Shown here in pieces: positions 7,199-36,110 of a stretch of DNA of 43,204 nucleotides. The notes beneath the pieces are model-generated. The model did no database searches and was not told the origin of the DNA. It saw nothing but the letters and a program-made list of their open reading frames with translations. The position numbers and the translations under genes are program-made. The number at the start of each line of letters is the position of its first letter. The first letter of the stretch is position 1. This DNA is from Flavobacteriia bacterium. Its GTDB lineage: Bacteria; Bacteroidota; Bacteroidia; Flavobacteriales; Flavobacteriaceae. The stretch lies in assembly GCA_010031465.1 (NCBI GenBank), contig RGZR01000002.1, forward strand, positions 1 through 43,204. Reading direction: 5' to 3'.

Positions 7199-7892
7199 TT
7201 AAAGTAATCTCTGATCTGCGAAGCTAAAATAGCCTTTTTCTGAAATTATCAAATGATCGAGTACTGTCAGATCTACTTGTTTGGCAGCCGACGTAAATTT
7301 TTGAGTTAACTGGGAATCACTCTCACTCGGACGCAGACCACCAGAGGGATGGTTATGAGCTAAAATAAGAGCTGTGGCCCCCAATTTCGAAGGCCCTCTT
7401 AAAGGCCAAGCGGAGATCAACAGCAGTTTGGGTAATTCCTCCTCGGCTAAGTTGATATTTTTCAATGAGTCTAGAAGATTGATTCAAATAAACAATCCAA
7501 AATTCTTCATGAGGTAAATTTTGTAAATCTGGAGCCAGTAGTGTAAAGGCACTATTACTATCTTTAACCACTGTTTTAGATTTAATTCCCCTGTAATACA
7601 TTCGCTCACACAAATCAAACGGGGCTTTTATTTTGATGGCCTTAACTGTTCCAATTCCCTTAAAACGGACTAATTGTTCCAGTGATTGTTGTTGCAGTTT
7701 GTTAAGGTCATTATCATTTACCTTGAGTATGTACTGCATTAATTGAACAGCGTTAAGTTCACGGGTACCATTACCAATAAGCAACGCCAATAATTCTGCA
7801 TTTGTTAGATAGGCGGAGCCAAATTGTTTGAATTTTTCTCTTGGGCGATCTGAAGGATCCCAATCTTTAATAGAAAGCTTATTTGAGGTCAT
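7199..7892 (-). pseudogene. radC: radC (JAMM-domain RadC), frameshifted at a G5 run
   Basis: The gene reads as two overlapping frames of a single RadC protein. The 5' part (ATG at 7892) has the helix-hairpin-helix region (LVRFKGIGTVKAIKIKA) and enters the JAMM domain at VYLNQSSRL. Around 7378-7382 (GGGGG on the coding strand) the frame goes wrong and ends soon after. Removing one G continues as EIGATALILAHNHPSG, through the second frame to the stop at 7199. The JAMM zinc motif HxHPSG...SESD is intact in that second part. This is either a real 1-nt insertion that inactivates the gene or a sequencing error. RadC's cellular role is poorly defined despite its name. An in-frame ATG at 7940 would only extend the non-conserved N-terminus. 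Confidence 0.88.
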
Positions 7893-7948
7893 CGGGCAAA
7901 GACTGTACTTCAAGATAGAAAAAAAGTAACTACAGCGCAACGGCTCTA

Positions 7949-14649: not shown

Positions 14650-14836
14650 TTTACTACTTTTTGTACCTTAAAAGGGTTTACCCCTTATCGTTACGGCATG
14701 ATTCCCAATTTGGGGGCTTGCTCTATGGCCCTTCTACCCTACATTGTTTTTTTCATTGTACTGCACAACTTTCTTTCTTTGGGAATGCAGCTATAGGCGA
14801 ACAACATGAGTTGTTTATTGCTTTTCCGAAAACCTA

Positions 14837-14879
14837 TTTTGCAGGAGGGGTTATATATACAAATAGAAATCCTGCAAAA
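14837..14879. terminator. Bidirectional hairpin between convergent dcp and rhodanese genes
   Basis: The perfect 10-bp arms TTTTGCAGGA (14837-14846) and TCCTGCAAAA (14870-14879) flank a 23-nt loop. With T-rich and A-rich ends this can terminate transcription in both directions. The long loop makes it weaker than a classical terminator. The rest of the 239-nt gap (14650-14888) shows no gene I can support. Confidence 0.5.
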
Positions 14880-19161: not shown

Positions 19162-20217
19162 ATGAATATCAAAATTACAGGTAGCGGAAGTAGTATTCCT
19201 GAATTAATTCAACCCAATGCTGCATTTTTAAATCACGATTTTTTTGATGCAGAAGGTGCACACATTGACCTTGCTACAGAAGAAATTATTGAAAAGTTTA
19301 AAGCCATTACTGGAATTCAGCAACGGCGTTACATACGTGATAATCAAACGGTGGTAGACATTGCCACTGAAGCTGCTCAAAAAGCGATTCATGATGCACA
19401 AGTAGATGCAGAGACCCTAGATTACATCATTTTAGCACACAATGTAGGCGACATTCGCAAAAACTCTAATCAAGTGGACACATTACCCAGTTTGGCTTCG
19501 AAGATAAAAGCCAAATTGAAAATTAAAAATTCCTCTTGTGTTGCCTATGATATCTTATTTGGCTGTCCTGGATGGGTGGAAGGAGTTATACAAGCCTCTG
19601 CCTTTATCAAATCGGGGATGGCTCAAAAATGTTTGGTAATTGGGGCTGATACCTTGTCTAGAGTATTGGACGATTCCGATCGGGATTCAATGATTTACGC
19701 CGATGGTGCAGGAGCCACCATTGTACAAGCTACCGAAGAAGTTGGCGGTATTTTATCTCACAAAACAGCCACATTTACTGCCGATGGAGAAGCAGAATTT
19801 ATTTATTACGGGGAAGCCAATACCAATAGTGACGGTACAAAATACATTAAAATGTATGGCCGAAAAGTATATGAATTTGCTTTAATTCAAGTTCCTCTCG
19901 CTTTAAAGGAATGTATAGAAGCCTCGGGTTGTTCAATAGAGGATGTAAAAAAAATATTCATACATCAAGCCAATTTAAAAATGGACGATGCCATTATTAA
20001 ACGGTTGTATCGACTGTACAAAAAACCCATGCCTGAAACGGTTTTACCAATGAATATTCAGGAATTTGGAAACAGTTCTGTAGCTACGGTTCCCACATTA
20101 TATGACTTAGTGAAAAAGCAACAATACGGCGGTCACTCTCTTCAACAAGGAGATTTAATCGTATTCGCTTCCGTAGGAGCTGGAATGAATATTAATGCCA
20201 TTACCTATAGAGTGTAA
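19162..20217 (+). CDS. 3-oxoacyl-ACP synthase III-like ketosynthase (FabH family)
   Basis: This thiolase-fold condensing enzyme has 351 residues. The Cys-His-Asn catalytic triad is complete: C135 in LFGCPGW, H268 in IFIHQANLK and N304 in EFGNSSVATVP. The family joins acyl-CoA starters to malonyl-ACP at the start of fatty acid synthesis. The FGCPGW active-site context and the distance from any fab cluster suggest a FabH paralogue with a distinct starter, or a role in a secondary lipid, so I withhold the fabH symbol. An Mla-type lipid transporter follows with its own promoter. Confidence 0.85.
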   Translation: MNIKITGSGSSIPELIQPNAAFLNHDFFDAEGAHIDLATEEIIEKFKAITGIQQRRYIRDNQTVVDIATEAAQKAIHDAQVDAETLDYIILAHNVGDIRKNSNQVDTLPSLASKIKAKLKIKNSSCVAYDILFGCPGWVEGVIQASAFIKSGMAQKCLVIGADTLSRVLDDSDRDSMIYADGAGATIVQATEEVGGILSHKTATFTADGEAEFIYYGEANTNSDGTKYIKMYGRKVYEFALIQVPLALKECIEASGCSIEDVKKIFIHQANLKMDDAIIKRLYRLYKKPMPETVLPMNIQEFGNSSVATVPTLYDLVKKQQYGGHSLQQGDLIVFASVGAGMNINAITYRV

Positions 20218-20257
20218 CCCTATAGAATTACTCTAAAAAGCCTCAGAGAACCAAAAT

Positions 20258-20284
20258 TTGTATCATGTAAAATCACTACCTTTG
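20258..20284 (+). promoter_or_regulatory. Promoter for the MlaE/MlaF operon
   Basis: TACCTTTG (20277-20284) fits TAnnTTTG, with TTG (20258-20260) 16 nt upstream, one nucleotide under the usual spacing range. The mlaE ATG starts only 8 nt after the element, predicting an almost leaderless transcript. Confidence 0.55.
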
Positions 20285-20291
20285 ATAGGGT

Positions 20292-21029
20292 ATGAAAATA
20301 CTATCTCACATTGGACGATATTTCCTAATGATCCAGCAAACCTTTGGTAAATTTACCAAATGGAAAATGCTTAAGCAATTGATTCTTAAAGATATAGATG
20401 TTTTAGTAATCGGATCACTGGGAATCGTTGCTTTTATCTCCTTTTTTGTCGGAGGGGTGGTTTCCATACAAACAGCATTAAATTTAGAGAATCCACTATT
20501 GCCAAAAAATCTAATCGGATTTGCCACTCGGCAGTCCGTCATTTTAGAATTTGCACCTACTTTTATTTCCATTATTATGGCAGGGAAGGTGGGTTCTTAT
20601 ATCACCTCTAGCATTGGAACCATGCGAGTTACAGAGCAAATTGACGCATTAGAGGTTATGGGGATTAACACTTATAATTATTTGATTTTTCCTAAAATAG
20701 TAGCCTTATCATTATATCCCTTAGTCATTAGTTTTTCAATGTTTTTAGGCGTTTTTGGCGGATATATTGCTTGTGTTTATGGCGGCTTTTCATCAAGTGC
20801 TGATTTTATTGAAGGGATTCAAATGGACTTTATCCCCTTCCATGTTGGCTACGCTTTTATTAAAACTGCTTTTTTCTCTTTTATTTTAGCTACCATTCCC
20901 TCCTATCACGGATACTATATGAATGGGGGTGCCTTAGATGTAGGAAAAGCCAGTACGGTTTCATTTGTTTGGACGAGTGTCGCCATCATACTTTTAAATT
21001 ACCTCATCACCCAATTGCTTCTTACCTAA
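20292..21029 (+). CDS. mlaE: MlaE-family lipid ABC transporter permease
   Basis: This permease belongs to the MlaE/YrbE family and moves phospholipids between the inner and outer membranes. At 245 residues with about five hydrophobic spans it is normal for the family. It shows the conserved core VGGVVSIQTAL, then LEFAPTFISIIMAGKVGSYITSS, then GTMRVTEQIDALEVMGIN, which holds the ATPase-coupling helix. The ATPase gene follows with no gap (stop at 21029, next start at 21030). No MCE (MlaD) gene is adjacent. Confidence 0.92.
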   Translation: MKILSHIGRYFLMIQQTFGKFTKWKMLKQLILKDIDVLVIGSLGIVAFISFFVGGVVSIQTALNLENPLLPKNLIGFATRQSVILEFAPTFISIIMAGKVGSYITSSIGTMRVTEQIDALEVMGINTYNYLIFPKIVALSLYPLVISFSMFLGVFGGYIACVYGGFSSSADFIEGIQMDFIPFHVGYAFIKTAFFSFILATIPSYHGYYMNGGALDVGKASTVSFVWTSVAIILLNYLITQLLLT

Positions 21030-21791
21030 ATGATCAAAGTAGAAAACATAAAAAAATCATTTGATGATATTGCTGTTTTAAAAGGAATATCAGCCACATT
21101 TGAGAAGGGGAAAACAAACCTAATTATTGGACAAAGTGGATCGGGAAAAACGGTTTTTTTAAAATGCCTACTCGGTTTATTTAACATTGATAGTGGTAAA
21201 ATATTTTTTGAAAACAAACGGCTAAAAGAAATGTCATTGGCTGATCGTTTGGTACTTCGACAAGAAATGGGGATGGTTTTTCAAGGAAGTGCTTTATTTG
21301 ACTCCATGAATGTTGAAGAAAACATCATGTTTCCACTCGGTATGTTTACGTCAAAAAAAAATAGTGAAATTCGAGACCGTGCCAATATTGTAATAAAAAG
21401 GGTTAATCTCATCAATGCCAATGAAAAATATCCTGATGAAATTTCTGGTGGCATGAAAAAAAGAGTAGCCATTGCCCGAGCCATTGTGATGAATCCAAAA
21501 TTTTTATTTTGTGATGAACCCAATTCTGGATTGGATCCTAAAACAGCCATTTTAATTGATAATCTAATTCAAGAAATTACAGAAGAATATCAAATCACAA
21601 CGGTGATCAATACACACGACATGAACTCTGTGATGGAAATTGGTCAAAAAATAGTATTCTTGCGCAATGGATTAAAAGAATGGGAAGGATCAAAAGAAGA
21701 TATTTTTTCAACCGAAAATGAAGCAGTAACGAATTTTGTATATTCTTCAGACTTGTTTAAAAAAGTGAGAGAGGTTTACTTAAAAAAATAA
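21030..21791 (+). CDS. mlaF: MlaF-family lipid ABC transporter ATPase
   Basis: This is the nucleotide-binding subunit that powers the adjacent MlaE permease. At 253 residues, it has Walker A GQSGSGKT (34-41), the ABC signature ISGGMKKR (138-145), and Walker B FLFCDEP (158-164) followed by NSGLDP. The SGGMKKR form of the signature is typical of Mla-type ATPases. Its TAA stop at 21789-21791 directly abuts the stop of the convergent SprT-like gene, with no terminator between them. Confidence 0.94.
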   Translation: MIKVENIKKSFDDIAVLKGISATFEKGKTNLIIGQSGSGKTVFLKCLLGLFNIDSGKIFFENKRLKEMSLADRLVLRQEMGMVFQGSALFDSMNVEENIMFPLGMFTSKKNSEIRDRANIVIKRVNLINANEKYPDEISGGMKKRVAIARAIVMNPKFLFCDEPNSGLDPKTAILIDNLIQEITEEYQITTVINTHDMNSVMEIGQKIVFLRNGLKEWEGSKEDIFSTENEAVTNFVYSSDLFKKVREVYLKK

Positions 21792-22385
21792 TTATTCAGG
21801 AATTACTCCTGCATGAGGACTAAATAAGTAAATCCTACCTGTTTTTATTTCTTTACATTCAATTCGAATTCTTCTTTTTTTGATTTTGATAAACCGTCTT
21901 CCGTTTTCTAATCTAAAAGATTGCCCCTCATGAAGATCATTCACACAGGGTACGGGTTCGGTTTCTTCATCCCAATGCTGTAGAGCCTTGACTAAGTTAA
22001 AATCACGATCTGAACTTGCCTTAGGGTTTTTCATGTGACGAGCCAACACACTACACAAGTTGCCCGGAAAAATATTGGGCTGCAAAAAGGGCAATAGTAA
22101 AGAACGAAAAGCCATTTTCCATTCTAATCCGTGGGGTCTTGCTCTTCTTCCATGCTCTAAAAACACTTTAAAATGAGCAAGCTCGTGCAAAAGTGTGATC
22201 AAAAAGCGGTAAGGATTTAAAGATGCATTTATAGTTATGGAAGTTGTTCCATTTGAGTTCATCCGAAAATCACCGTGCTTTGTCAATCGATGTTTTGTTA
22301 TTTTAATGGCAATAGGATAGTGTTCCAAAAGGGCTTTTACTTGTTGTTGCGCAGCGTGAGGAATACTTTTTAAAACTAAATCCAT
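21792..22385 (-). CDS. SprT-like zinc metallopeptidase domain protein
   Basis: This 197-residue protein from the ATG at 22385 has a gluzincin-like zinc motif HELAH (residues 67-71) with H85 in the PHGLEWK context, the pattern of the SprT/Spartan domain. The C-terminal part is basic and beta-rich (residues ~160-190) and lacks the Cys zinc ribbon often found in SprT proteins. In eukaryotes the domain degrades DNA-protein crosslinks; the bacterial role is unclear. A start at 22430 would overlap the SDR gene by 38 nt and adds non-conserved residues, so I prefer 22385. Confidence 0.82.
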   Translation of the reverse strand: MDLVLKSIPHAAQQQVKALLEHYPIAIKITKHRLTKHGDFRMNSNGTTSITINASLNPYRFLITLLHELAHFKVFLEHGRRARPHGLEWKMAFRSLLLPFLQPNIFPGNLCSVLARHMKNPKASSDRDFNLVKALQHWDEETEPVPCVNDLHEGQSFRLENGRRFIKIKKRRIRIECKEIKTGRIYLFSPHAGVIPE

Positions 22386-22392
22386 TAACCAA

Positions 22393-23070
22393 TTAGGGGG
22401 TTGACGAAGAAACGGGAAGAACCTTACCATTGAAATATCGGTGTCCCTCTAAAGCAAACTGAAGAATATAGTCTGCCATTTCATTAGCTTGAATTGGAGC
22501 TTTAAACTCAGGAAAGGCTTGAGTTAACATTTCTGTTTGTACCGCGCCTAAGGCAAGGGCATTGAATTTTGGACCCGTTGCTTTAAATTCTTCCGCCAAA
22601 AGTTCAGTTAAAATACTCACTGCCCCTTTACTACTGCTGTAGGCGGAAAGCCCAGCAAATTTACTTGATCCCCCTATTCCACCCATACTACTAATATTGA
22701 CCACATGGCTGTTCACTTTCATAAAGGGAAGTAGGGCTTGCGTAATGGAGACTAAACCAAATACATTTGTTTCAAATACCTGATGAAAATCTTCAGAAGT
22801 TGTTTCTAAAAAAGGTTTATGAAGTAAAATACCTGCATTATTAATCAACACATCAATAGTGTCTGTAGTTGCTCGAATTTCATTAACCGCTTGTTGAACG
22901 TCTTTGGTGTCCGACAAATCTAACTGCAAAGGAATAACTCCTGAAGTGGCTTGCAATGAGGTAACATTTCGTGATAAGGCAAAAACACGATGGCCTTTCT
23001 CCGCGGCTTGCAAAGCCAATTCACGACCAATGCCTTTACTTGAACCTGTAACTACAATTGTTTTTGGCAT
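22393..23070 (-). CDS. Short-chain dehydrogenase/reductase
   Basis: This is a classical SDR of 225 residues. The NAD(P)-binding motif TGSSKGIG is at 8-15, NNAG at 77-80, the catalytic serine lies in NISSMGG (125-131), and the YxxxK pair is Y144/K148 in AYSSSKGA. The basic residue after the first strand (SRN) suggests NADP preference. The substrate is unknown. It sits 43 nt downstream of the disrupted pdhC and just upstream of the SprT-like gene on the same strand. Confidence 0.88.
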   Translation of the reverse strand: MPKTIVVTGSSKGIGRELALQAAEKGHRVFALSRNVTSLQATSGVIPLQLDLSDTKDVQQAVNEIRATTDTIDVLINNAGILLHKPFLETTSEDFHQVFETNVFGLVSITQALLPFMKVNSHVVNISSMGGIGGSSKFAGLSAYSSSKGAVSILTELLAEEFKATGPKFNALALGAVQTEMLTQAFPEFKAPIQANEMADYILQFALEGHRYFNGKVLPVSSSTP

Positions 23071-23113
23071 ATTTTAAAGATAGAGAATTTAGGCTATCCG
23101 GGCTACTCTTTAT

Positions 23114-24627
23114 CTACAATACCATAGTTAAAGGGTTTTCAACATACCCTCTAAGCGTTTGCAAAAATTGTGCTCCAGTAGCTCCATCTATTACTCTGTG
23201 ATCACAAGCTAGAGTTAATTTCATCGTATTCCCTACCACTATTGACCCATTTTTCACTACGGGCTTTTGAACAATGGCACCAACAGAAAGGATGGCCCCA
23301 TTGGGTTGGTTTATAATAGAGGTAAATTCTTGAATACCAAACATTCCTAGGTTGGAAATGGTGAATGTACTTCCTTCCATCTCATTAGGAGTGAGTTTTT
23401 TATCTTTTGCCTTTAGCGCATATTCTTTTACTGTACATGATGGTGCTGTGTGATTTGACTATCTTCCCACTTCGCATTAGCTTGCGGATGTTGCTTTAAT
23501 GCAAGTGCTGAAGCTTTAACTACAATATCATTAAATGAAATTTTAGTGTCAGGTAAAGCGTTGTATTGTTCTCTAAACGAAATAGCGTGATCCATGTCAA
23601 ACTCCACACCCAAATAGTAATGGGGTGCAGTAAATTTTGAAGCGGCAAGCCTTTTCGCTATGGTTTTACGCATTTGAGAATTGGCAATTGTAGTAACTGA
23701 CTCTGTTCCCTTGGGAACAATAACCGCATTTGTCATTCCCGCCGAGGGAGTATACTGATCAATATCTCGTTTAACAATTCTACCCTGCTCTCCTGAACCG
23801 TGAATTCTAGCGAGGTCAATTCCTTTTTCAGCCGCTAATTTTTTAGCCAAAGGGGAAGCTACAATTCGACCATTTGGAGTAGCTGTTGTTTGGGGTTGAC
23901 TTACTGGAGTTTGTGTTGTTTTACTCTCAGCGATTTGAACGGGAGCTTCTTCAACGGGCGCTACATCATCCCTTTTAACAGGAGAATTCGCTGTTGCTTT
24001 TTGGCTTTCAGCCCAAGCTTTTACTTCTGTACCTTTTTCGCCTATTACAGCCAAGACACTATCTACGGGGGCTGAATCTCCTTCTTGAAGGCCAATATAC
24101 AGTAAGGTTCCGCTGTAGAATGATTCAAACTCCATTGTAGCCTTATCTGTTTCAATTTCAGCTAGAATATCGCCTTCTTTGACTTGATCCCCTACTTTTA
24201 TATTCCATTTGGCCACGGTCCCTTCCTCCATCGTATCGCTGAGTCTGGGCATGGTAATAATTTCAACACCTTCGGGTGCAGCTACAGGAGCATCTGTTGA
24301 AGCTTCCGCTTTAGGAGCTTCTGTCGTTTTTTCTTCTGTCTTAGGAGTATCGGTTTTTTGTCCAGATAGTAACCCTGAAATATCTTCTCCTTTGTTTCCT
24401 ATAATTGCCAATAAAGAATCAACAGCTGCAGTGCCGCCTTCTGGAATGCCAATATGCAATAATTCACCCTCGTTAAAGGATTCAAATTCCATAGTGGCTT
24501 TGTCCGTTTCAATTTCAGCAAGGATATCGCCTTCTTTAATTTGATCCCCTACTTTTTTTAACCATTTTGCCACGGTACCTTCTTCCATCGTATCGCTTAG
24601 GCGAGGCATTGTAATTATTTCTGCCAT
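23114..24627 (-). pseudogene. pdhC: pdhC, pyruvate dehydrogenase E2 (dihydrolipoyl acetyltransferase), internal deletion plus frameshift
   Basis: E2 is the core of the pyruvate dehydrogenase complex and transfers acetyl groups from lipoamide to CoA. Frame one (399 residues) holds two lipoyl domains (lipoyl-lysines K43 and K162 in TDKATME), a peripheral subunit-binding domain (~254-290) and the start of the catalytic domain, ending abruptly at QHHHVQ. The second frame resumes as VKEYALKAKDKKLTPNEMEG and runs to the stop at 23114, keeping the catalytic DHR motif (LACDHRVIDG). Between HHHV and VKEY, the conserved segment of about 28-32 residues (usually HVGVAVAV...GLLVPV...) is missing and the frame shifts. 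The junction is at about 23431-23434. Without that strand the enzyme should be inactive, unless this is an assembly error. Confidence 0.9.
24037..24624 (-). repeat. Tandem near-identical lipoyl domains within pdhC
   Basis: Two lipoyl domains (residues 2-78 and 121-197) are almost the same for the first 50 positions. The shared runs include EIITMPRLSDTMEEGTVAKW and EGDILAEIETDKATMEFESF. An Ala/Pro/Glu-rich linker separates them. The DNA is also very similar, which points to recent duplication or gene conversion. Confidence 0.8.
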
Positions 24628-24630
24628 GTT

Positions 24631-25629
24631 CTAAAGTTTGTGTTTTATAAAGGGATAATCTTGTTGCTCATAAACAGCATCATACATCAAATTGAGGTCT
24701 GGAAAAGGAGATTCTTCGGCAAATTTTTCACATTCTGCCACTCTTTCTTTCACTTCTTTATCAATAGCTGCGAGTTGTTTTTCAGTTGCGTATTTTTTGC
24801 TTAGTATGATTTCTTTTACTGTGCTTATTGGGTCAATTTTTTTGTATTCCTCAACCTCATCTTTAGTTCTGTAATGTTGGGCATCAGACATAGAGTGTCC
24901 GCGATAACGATAGGTTTTCATTTCAATAAATGAAGGTCCGCCTCCCGATCGGGCTCTTTGAATCGCCTTATCCATAGTTTTCGCGACTTTTACTGGGTCC
25001 ATACCATCACAAGGCTCACAAGGCATATCGTATCCTAAGCCAAGTTTCCAAATTTCATCATGTGAAGCCGTACGGGCTACAGAAGTTCCCATAGCATAGC
25101 CATTATTTTCGACTACAAAAACAACGGGCAATTGCCAAAGTGTAGACAGGTTTAGGGTTTCGTGAAGTGATCCTTGGCGAACGGCACCATCACCCATAAA
25201 ACAAAGCGTAACATTATCACGGTCAAAATATTTATCGCCGAAAGCCATTCCTGCGCCTAGTGGAATTTGACCTCCTACAATTCCGTGTCCTCCATGGAAT
25301 TTAAATTCTTTAGAAAATATATGCATTGATCCTCCAAGACCCATTGAAGTTCCGGTAGCTTTTCCGTAGAGTTCTGCCATAACACGTTTAGGGTCAACAC
25401 CCATACCGATCGGTTGAACGTGGTTTCTATACGCTGTGATCATTCGGTCTTTACCCAATTCCATAGCGTGAAGAGAGCCTGCTAAAACAGCTTCTTGACC
25501 GTTGTAAAGATGGAGAAATCCTCGAACTTTTTGCTGGATATAAACAGAGGCTAGTTTATCTTCAAACTTTCTCCAAAAGAGCATATTTTCATACCAATTC
25601 AGATAGGTTTCCTTTGTAATTTTCTTCAT
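24631..25629 (-). CDS. pdhA: Pyruvate dehydrogenase E1 component, alpha subunit
   Basis: This is the thiamine-diphosphate-binding alpha chain of heterotetrameric E1, which decarboxylates pyruvate. The 332 residues match the family. The ThDP motif starts at GDG (146-148) in FMGDGAVRQGSLHE and ends at NN (175-176). The regulatory loop YRYRGHSMSDAQHYR follows near residue 240. The gene ends 3 nt before the pdhC start, so the two form an operon. The E1 beta gene is not in this window, as is common in flavobacteria where pdhB is elsewhere. Confidence 0.96.
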   Translation of the reverse strand: MKKITKETYLNWYENMLFWRKFEDKLASVYIQQKVRGFLHLYNGQEAVLAGSLHAMELGKDRMITAYRNHVQPIGMGVDPKRVMAELYGKATGTSMGLGGSMHIFSKEFKFHGGHGIVGGQIPLGAGMAFGDKYFDRDNVTLCFMGDGAVRQGSLHETLNLSTLWQLPVVFVVENNGYAMGTSVARTASHDEIWKLGLGYDMPCEPCDGMDPVKVAKTMDKAIQRARSGGGPSFIEMKTYRYRGHSMSDAQHYRTKDEVEEYKKIDPISTVKEIILSKKYATEKQLAAIDKEVKERVAECEKFAEESPFPDLNLMYDAVYEQQDYPFIKHKL

Positions 25630-25716: not shown

Positions 25717-26919
25717 TTATTGGGCTGCCGTCCCTGTACTACTATCAATAGGGGAAGCAGCAGTAGAATCTAATTGTAAGGCAACTGAAAATCGTAATGT
25801 GTTTTCAAGTGGATTACGCACATTTGAAGCTGAAAAAAGGTAGGAAATATCGATTTCTATAAAATTGAGATCAAAGCCTGCACCCATTGTCAGATACCGT
25901 CTAGACCCTTTATTTTGATTTTCATTAAAAAATCCGGAACGCAAGGAAAAGGAGTCTTGGAAACGGTATTCAAATCCCAAGGCCATGGTAATTTCACTCA
26001 ACTCTTCTGAAAGCCCGTCAGGAGCATCACTAAAGGAAGTGAAAATGCCCGATAAAAAATCAATATCAGGTTGCTGATACCCCATGAATCTTGCATTTGT
26101 ATCATACACGGCCACAGGCGTTGGCACAAGTAATTTATTGAACTCAGTATAGATTCCAAGGCGGTTAGTATCGTCGTAAATCAGATCAAGTCCAAAACCA
26201 AGTTTTAGGTTCGTAGGTATAAAGTTTTTTTGTCCACCAATATCATAGTTTAATCGAGGACCAATATTTGAAATCGTAAGGCCGCTGCGAAACAGCCCTT
26301 CCTTAGTCCCTAAATCAAATACTGAACTTTCAAAATAAGTAGCAATATCAATACCCAAAGAATTGGCTGAAGAAGTATCTGCATCGGTAGTAATCTTAAG
26401 ATCCGAGCGAATGTACCGGCCTGCCACTGCCATAGAAATTTGCTCACTTAACTTTAATGCGTAAGATAGATCTAAAGTTAACTCAGTAGGGCGCTCATAG
26501 CCTTGATCCACTATTGAACCTCCTATAAGCTCATTAAATTGGATGTCACCCAAACTAAAATACCTCAAACTGGTTGCCCATGCACTTCGCTCATTTAACT
26601 TTTTGTAGTAGTTTATATTTCCTAAAAAAATATCGTCCACCAATTTGCTTAGGTAAGGCGTATAGCTTATTCCTATGGAAGTTTCAGAACTGGCAAAAAC
26701 GTATTTTGCAGGATTCCATTGTTGGGAATAAGTGTCTGCGGAGGTAGCTACACCCAATTCTCCCATACCAGCAGCGCGAGCATCTGGGGTAATCATCAAA
26801 AAGGGAACCCCAGTTGTAATAACCCGATTGGAGTTTTGTGCTTTTAGTTGGCTTGCATTAAACACCAAGAAAAAAACAATTGCCCTTTGTAATATTTTCT
26901 TCACGCTTTTTAAACGCAT
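25717..26919 (-). CDS. porV: PorV, type IX secretion outer-membrane shuttle protein
   Basis: PorV (LptO) is a beta-barrel of the FadL type that carries type IX secretion cargo from the SprA translocon to the attachment complex. At 400 residues it has a signal peptide ending near NASQLKAQ (about residue 28). It then has the conserved N-terminal stretch TGVPFLMITPDARAAGMGE, QQWNPAK, and many alternating beta-strands, with MGAGFDLNFIEIDISYLF near the C-terminus. It normally adjoins porU, but here the next gene upstream is gldJ, on the opposite strand. Confidence 0.93.
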   Translation of the reverse strand: MRLKSVKKILQRAIVFFLVFNASQLKAQNSNRVITTGVPFLMITPDARAAGMGELGVATSADTYSQQWNPAKYVFASSETSIGISYTPYLSKLVDDIFLGNINYYKKLNERSAWATSLRYFSLGDIQFNELIGGSIVDQGYERPTELTLDLSYALKLSEQISMAVAGRYIRSDLKITTDADTSSANSLGIDIATYFESSVFDLGTKEGLFRSGLTISNIGPRLNYDIGGQKNFIPTNLKLGFGLDLIYDDTNRLGIYTEFNKLLVPTPVAVYDTNARFMGYQQPDIDFLSGIFTSFSDAPDGLSEELSEITMALGFEYRFQDSFSLRSGFFNENQNKGSRRYLTMGAGFDLNFIEIDISYLFSASNVRNPLENTLRFSVALQLDSTAASPIDSSTGTAAQ

Positions 26920-36032: not shown

Positions 36033-36110
36033 TGGTGGGTGTTACTGGATTCGAACCAGTGACCTCTACCCTGTCAAGGTAGCGCTCTAAACCAACTGAG
36101 CTAAACACCC
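36033..36110 (-). tRNA. tRNA-Val (anticodon GAC)
   Basis: On the minus strand the acceptor arms GGGTGTT and AACACCC pair over 7 bp. The D arm is GCTC/GAGC, the anticodon arm is CTACC-TTGACAG-GGTAG with anticodon GAC, and the T arm is ACTGG-TTCGAAT-CCAGT. The discriminator A is followed by an encoded CCA (36033-36035). It is 78 nt with CCA. The anticodon reads GUC/GUU, valine. Confidence 0.95.

Follow-up and report, generated by a model that had tools for sequence, protein, structure and literature searches.

The window, meaning the whole 43,204-nt stretch analysed here, carries on its minus strand a broken pdhC, the gene for the E2 component of the pyruvate dehydrogenase (PDH) complex, which ORF and domain searches recovered as two parts in different frames. 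The N-terminal part (23428–24627, minus strand; 399 aa, ending ...ITQHHHVQ and a stop) comprises two lipoyl domains (two stretches of PF00364), an E3-binding domain (PF02817, 56.7 bits) and the first portion of the catalytic acyltransferase domain (PF00198 positions 3–96). The C-terminal part (23114–23434, minus strand) resumes in another frame at VKEYALKAKDKKL and holds TFTISN and DHRVIDG stretches. Its 114-aa open frame matches PF00198 positions 127–231 at 23120–23434, whereas the ORF counted from its first ATG has 88 aa (23114–23380, PF00198 positions 145–231); domain search found no lipoyl domain in this part. The window copy accordingly lacks a complete catalytic domain in one frame, PF00198 positions 3–96 and 127–231 lying in different frames. 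Against the TIGR01349 cut-off of 445, the N-terminal part scores 351.5 and falls below, while the intact 534-aa orthologue of the nearest congener searched (G016) scores 534.2 bits. Directly upstream lies an intact pdhA-like E1 alpha gene (24631–25629, minus strand; PF00676). Elsewhere the window encodes a single tRNA, tRNA-Val (gac) at 36033–36110, and no other Rfam match reached its gathering threshold.

The two parts of pdhC meet at a joint at 23431–23435, where the window has a net loss of 91 nt (30 codons + 1) relative to the intact G016 gene; the loss removes the segment HVHIGVAVAVEDGLVVPV...QIGAT, and congeners suggest a microoverlap of ~4 nt (TACA) at the joint. Genomes were compared at one per species. 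The window's own assembly (G000) is a draft whose 257 contigs total 1.85 Mb (85% complete, 2.9% contamination), and G016 is likewise a draft, with 80 contigs and 90% completeness. The stretch is ungapped in all 24 of the 24 congeners searched and has the same length in three examined genomes drawn from 15 of the same order outside the genus, a contrast with the window that is well beyond chance; natural length variation at this stretch was rejected, as none occurs among the 24 congeners. The preliminary description of the window had the frame ending after HHHV at 23420–23445 and resuming in another frame with about 30 conserved residues skipped. That observation is confirmed, since the joint falls inside this interval, 91 nt are missing relative to G016, and the alignment with flavobacterial PdhC that it proposed finds the stretch kept in all 24 congeners and in the three genomes from outside the genus.

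The joint also coincides with a change in sequence origin. G016 is collinear with the window, over three G016 contigs, at ~83% identity, with the exception of one tract (19864–23432, ~3.6 kb) that is ~95% identical to G016. (A ~200-nt intergenic segment between two genes, at 14650–14847, is absent from G016.) A three-segment fit (log-likelihood gain 238) placed this tract at 19864–23478, divergence dropping from 17.1% on both flanks to 4.8% within it. Its left edge (19858–19888) is clean and lies inside an intact 3-oxoacyl-ACP synthase III (KAS III)-like gene (19162–20217, plus strand), and its right edge (23423–23535, within 2 log units) includes the pdhC joint. At the DNA level, the N-terminal 1.2 kb of pdhC is 83.3% identical to G016 and the 336 nt past the joint 98.5%; the 110 nt left of the joint contain no mismatch to G016, and mismatches start at the joint itself. 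The earlier statement that both flanks of the deletion are well preserved holds for the domains kept on either side, but the two flanks are unequally close to G016. As identity to G016 changes right there, from ~95–98.5% to ~83%, the joint connects DNA of two different histories. Given that G016 is a draft, the identity jump alone indicates that one of the two assemblies is mosaic and not which one; the gap at that position belongs to G000.

To assess whether such losses recur, ORFs of at least 150 codons were compared in both directions between 60 stretches of G000 and 60 of G016, discarding match groups that spanned <30% of the query; the genes counted below as having an orthologue are ATG-start ORFs of this length from part of each genome. 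The G000 sample contained orthologues of 223 G016 genes. Of these, 200 matched cleanly over their full length, and 13 event rows came from 12 queries, the pdhC loss being entered twice (two overlapping loci contain pdhC). Clean internal losses in G000 affected three genes: pdhC (91 nt), a prolyl oligopeptidase gene in locus L205 (108 nt) and a gene for a two-domain ABC ATPase in L156 (126 nt). Three further G000 genes, in L156, L208 and the window, carry 1-nt frameshifts; the one-base differences from G016 sit within an A run in L156 and next to C and T runs in the window and L208. The window case is radC (7199–7940, minus strand), where an additional base next to a C run, compared with G016, splits the gene into ORFs of 195 and 88 aa. 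The six remaining rows are missing ends (L257, L207, L255 and, with three rows, L162); in L162 (contig C20, ~838–2808), two adjacent G016 genes appear as a single fused ORF of 658 aa, the G000 sequence being shorter by ~185 nt. When G000 genes were instead sought in G016, 201 of 216 were clean, and none of the 216 revealed a gap in G016: the four event rows are two that mirror G000 losses, the L162 fusion and a 27-residue N-terminal difference.

Both of the other internal losses are in frame and interrupt stretches conserved among relatives. The prolyl oligopeptidase gap (L205, 16095/16096) has an overlap of 0 nt, and the ABC ATPase gap (L156, 4940–4943) has one of 4 nt and removes a stretch with ILICDE, which we take to be the Walker B motif. 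Neither is accompanied by an identity jump to G016 (flanks of 93.7 and 93.8% for the former, 82.6 and 79.9% for the latter). The prolyl oligopeptidase search returned some match in 23 of 25 genomes; 13 outside G000 (G016 included) have an orthologue of at least 70% identity, the rest being distant paralogues, and the stretch is ungapped in 13 of these 13 orthologous loci. The ABC ATPase comparison covered 21 loci outside G000 (including G016 and a second copy in genome G023). Its stretch is ungapped in all 20 that could be judged; the remaining locus, L310, is truncated at the end of its contig, matched the stretch at only 40% and was set aside.

A second joint at a change of identity was found in L245 (contig C187, ~940–1040, with the joint near 975–988), where identity to G016 falls from 96.3% to 82.3%, ~1.1 kb is missing and two genes are cut. 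By reading alone, these are named as a putative arginase-like gene of 316 aa and a putative TerB-like gene of 140 aa; the former was missed in the ORF comparison, probably because match groups spanning <30% of the query were discarded. The aligned pieces overlap by 14 nt, inexactly, so the true match at this joint is shorter than 14 nt. In the parts of the two genomes compared, gene-breaking joints other than that in pdhC thus occur in G000 (L205, L156 and L245), with none in the comparable assembly of G016.

We further examined how often changes in identity to G016 coincide with gaps. Alignment of 32 of 58 G000 stretches (window included; 275,035 bases) and segmentation of the aligned 275 kb gave a background of ~83% with several tracts at 92–99%. 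For 15 mosaic boundaries, picked by hand and omitting a weaker one at 25938 of the window, 13 had no gap >2 nt within 150 nt, and the remaining two were the pdhC joint and L245; many tracts may therefore be real recombination. Possible examples of real interspecies recombination are the tracts in L219 (contig C36, 3871–20000) and L223 (11278–12397), which are 96–99% identical to G016 over a background of 79–90% and have clean edges. By chance, at least one of three gaps would fall within 50 nt of one of the 15 boundaries in ~1.6% of cases, a figure computed after the coincidence had been seen. Furthermore, contig sizes in G000 are exact multiples of 30 in 28 of the 61 seen and within one base of a multiple in 40 of 61 (in G016, 3 and 6 of 60, respectively); these steps of 30 point to unusual processing.

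Taken together, the sequence comparisons lead us to regard the pdhC joint as very probably an assembly misjoin, and probably one between co-occurring relatives. Two assembled pieces would have been joined on a ~4-nt overlap and the ~91 nt between them lost, cutting pdhC and shifting its frame. The right piece (the N-terminal part of pdhC, pdhA and onward) would be the main lineage of the window, and the left piece (the C-terminal part of pdhC back to ~19.86 kb) would be DNA much closer to G016. The assembler may have switched to DNA of a co-occurring relative; alternatively, the tract may itself stem from genuine recombination and differ among strains, its polymorphic edge having misled the assembler. 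By inference, the source was a metagenome, and the joint, created when gaps were closed or a consensus was called, is present in no actual DNA molecule. A draft-assembly step that closes gaps on tiny overlaps, within one lineage (L205 and L156) or between two (pdhC and L245), would be the simplest account of all the joints together. The misjoin is favored because the identity jump and the gap coincide and L245 repeats the pattern, and also because of the gaps in L205 and L156, the 1-nt frameshifts, the lack of G016 gaps in the reverse comparison and the contig sizes in multiples of 30. Several points weigh against it. Illegitimate recombination in living cells could likewise leave overlaps of ~4, 0 and 4 nt, as seen at three of the joints; on its left side the tract ends cleanly within an intact gene; 13 of the 15 boundaries have no gap >2 nt nearby; and k-mer assemblers ordinarily need a scaffolding or gap-closing step before they will join pieces that share 4 nt.

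This assignment bears on the origin of the lesion, which the preliminary description ascribed to either a recent event or an assembly collapse, as opposed to old decay. The data indeed give old decay no support and favor the assembly branch. A simple collapse of a repeat is ruled out as well: the one direct repeat detected nearby, 14 nt long with copies at 23374 and 23520 that are 79% alike, does not touch the joint, nor does a 9-nt inverted pair, and the overlap at the joint itself is only ~4 nt. The claim that the E2 gene of the organism carries an internal deletion is likewise unsupported, as the joint is a mosaic boundary and similar gaps occur elsewhere in the assembly.

A real lesion would have marked consequences. 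The preliminary description had predicted a block of pyruvate to acetyl-CoA flow unless a second E2 or a pyruvate:ferredoxin oxidoreductase (PFOR) exists; the corresponding searches of the assembly found neither a second PDH E2 nor a PFOR over its cut-off, and a serious block would be likely if the lesion were real. In G000 (85% complete), the sole PFOR hit was partial, scoring 23.7 bits where the cut-off is 911.35, and no PFL was found. The other two PF00198 genes of the assembly are SucB (TIGR01347, over cut-off) and an E2 below every cut-off, PDH E2 cut-offs included; the search for a second PDH E2 thus gave no gene over the cut-off, and no further PF00198 fragment that could be the missing pdhC piece was present. 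Judged from these searches, a real loss of pdhC would leave none of the pyruvate to acetyl-CoA routes searched for in this assembly and should therefore be severe. With the flanks of pdhC conserved and neither PFOR nor PFL found, a fixed null allele is unlikely, which also favors the misjoin.

The main rival to the misjoin is a real import of ~3.6 kb from a G016-like relative, with a homologous end in the KAS III-like gene, an illegitimate ~4-nt end in pdhC and 91 nt deleted, leaving no working PDH. One homologous end combined with one end at a match of a few nucleotides, accompanied by DNA loss, is the shape of homology-facilitated illegitimate recombination; the tract and its joint present one clean homologous end and one few-nucleotide end with loss of DNA, and the L245 joint is similar. 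We nevertheless consider such an import unlikely. The gaps in L205 and L156 lack an identity jump and 1-nt frameshifts are also present, which makes a general assembly problem likely in any case, and this type of recombination alone leaves those other gaps and frameshifts unaccounted for; moreover, a null pdhC in a cell without PFOR or PFL should be strongly selected against, and all 24 congeners searched are intact at the stretch. That a flavobacterial lineage imported these 3.6 kb from a sister species and now lives without PDH, PFOR and PFL on some other source of acetyl-CoA strikes us as quite unlikely.

Less probable again, and to our minds very doubtful, is a real but simple deletion that arose independently of the mosaic boundary through slippage at short repeats or end joining, possibly confined to a minority strain or a chance mutant. 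The ~4-nt overlap and the short loss would suit such an event, but no repeat copy lies at the joint, similar gaps occur in other conserved G000 genes, and the deletion would have to coincide with the identity jump (the post hoc ~1.6% above). That the sequence is correct and pdhC is expressed by frameshifting or as two working fragments is barely credible: the C-terminal part does retain its 114-aa open frame, but frameshifting could not restore 30 missing catalytic residues that are kept in all 24 congeners searched, and as a separate fragment that part would have no lipoyl domain.

For G000, the assembly misjoin reading counsels caution against inferring metabolic loss, several conserved genes being cut alike. 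It also suggests a test that needs no reads: looking for a jump in identity to a close relative precisely where a deletion seems to lie.

Compared with known systems, the window pdhC follows the E2 of the PDH complex (TIGR01349; PF00364, PF02817, PF00198) in its domain order, its pdhA-like neighbor and the catalytic-domain parts flanking the joint, and differs in lacking ~30 residues and in its shifted frame. With homology-facilitated illegitimate recombination, which is described as inefficient but able to integrate segments of 3 to 10 bp in competent bacteria (PMC6382021), the tract would share the shape of its ends, a shape that an assembler can also produce; G000 differs in having similar gaps without an identity jump. 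The joint also resembles chimeric and local assembly errors of metagenome-assembled genomes (MAGs). One account states that uncurated local assembly errors and gaps lead to incomplete or incorrect protein-coding genes in databases, that reading frames in composites of related strains may be chimeric and that MAG assembly errors damage genes (PMC7111523), and chimeric contigs and platform-linked frameshifts are described in another (PMC10978663). With these errors, the pdhC joint shares a gene-breaking position at a change of origin, recurrence within the assembly and intactness of the gene in the congeners searched.
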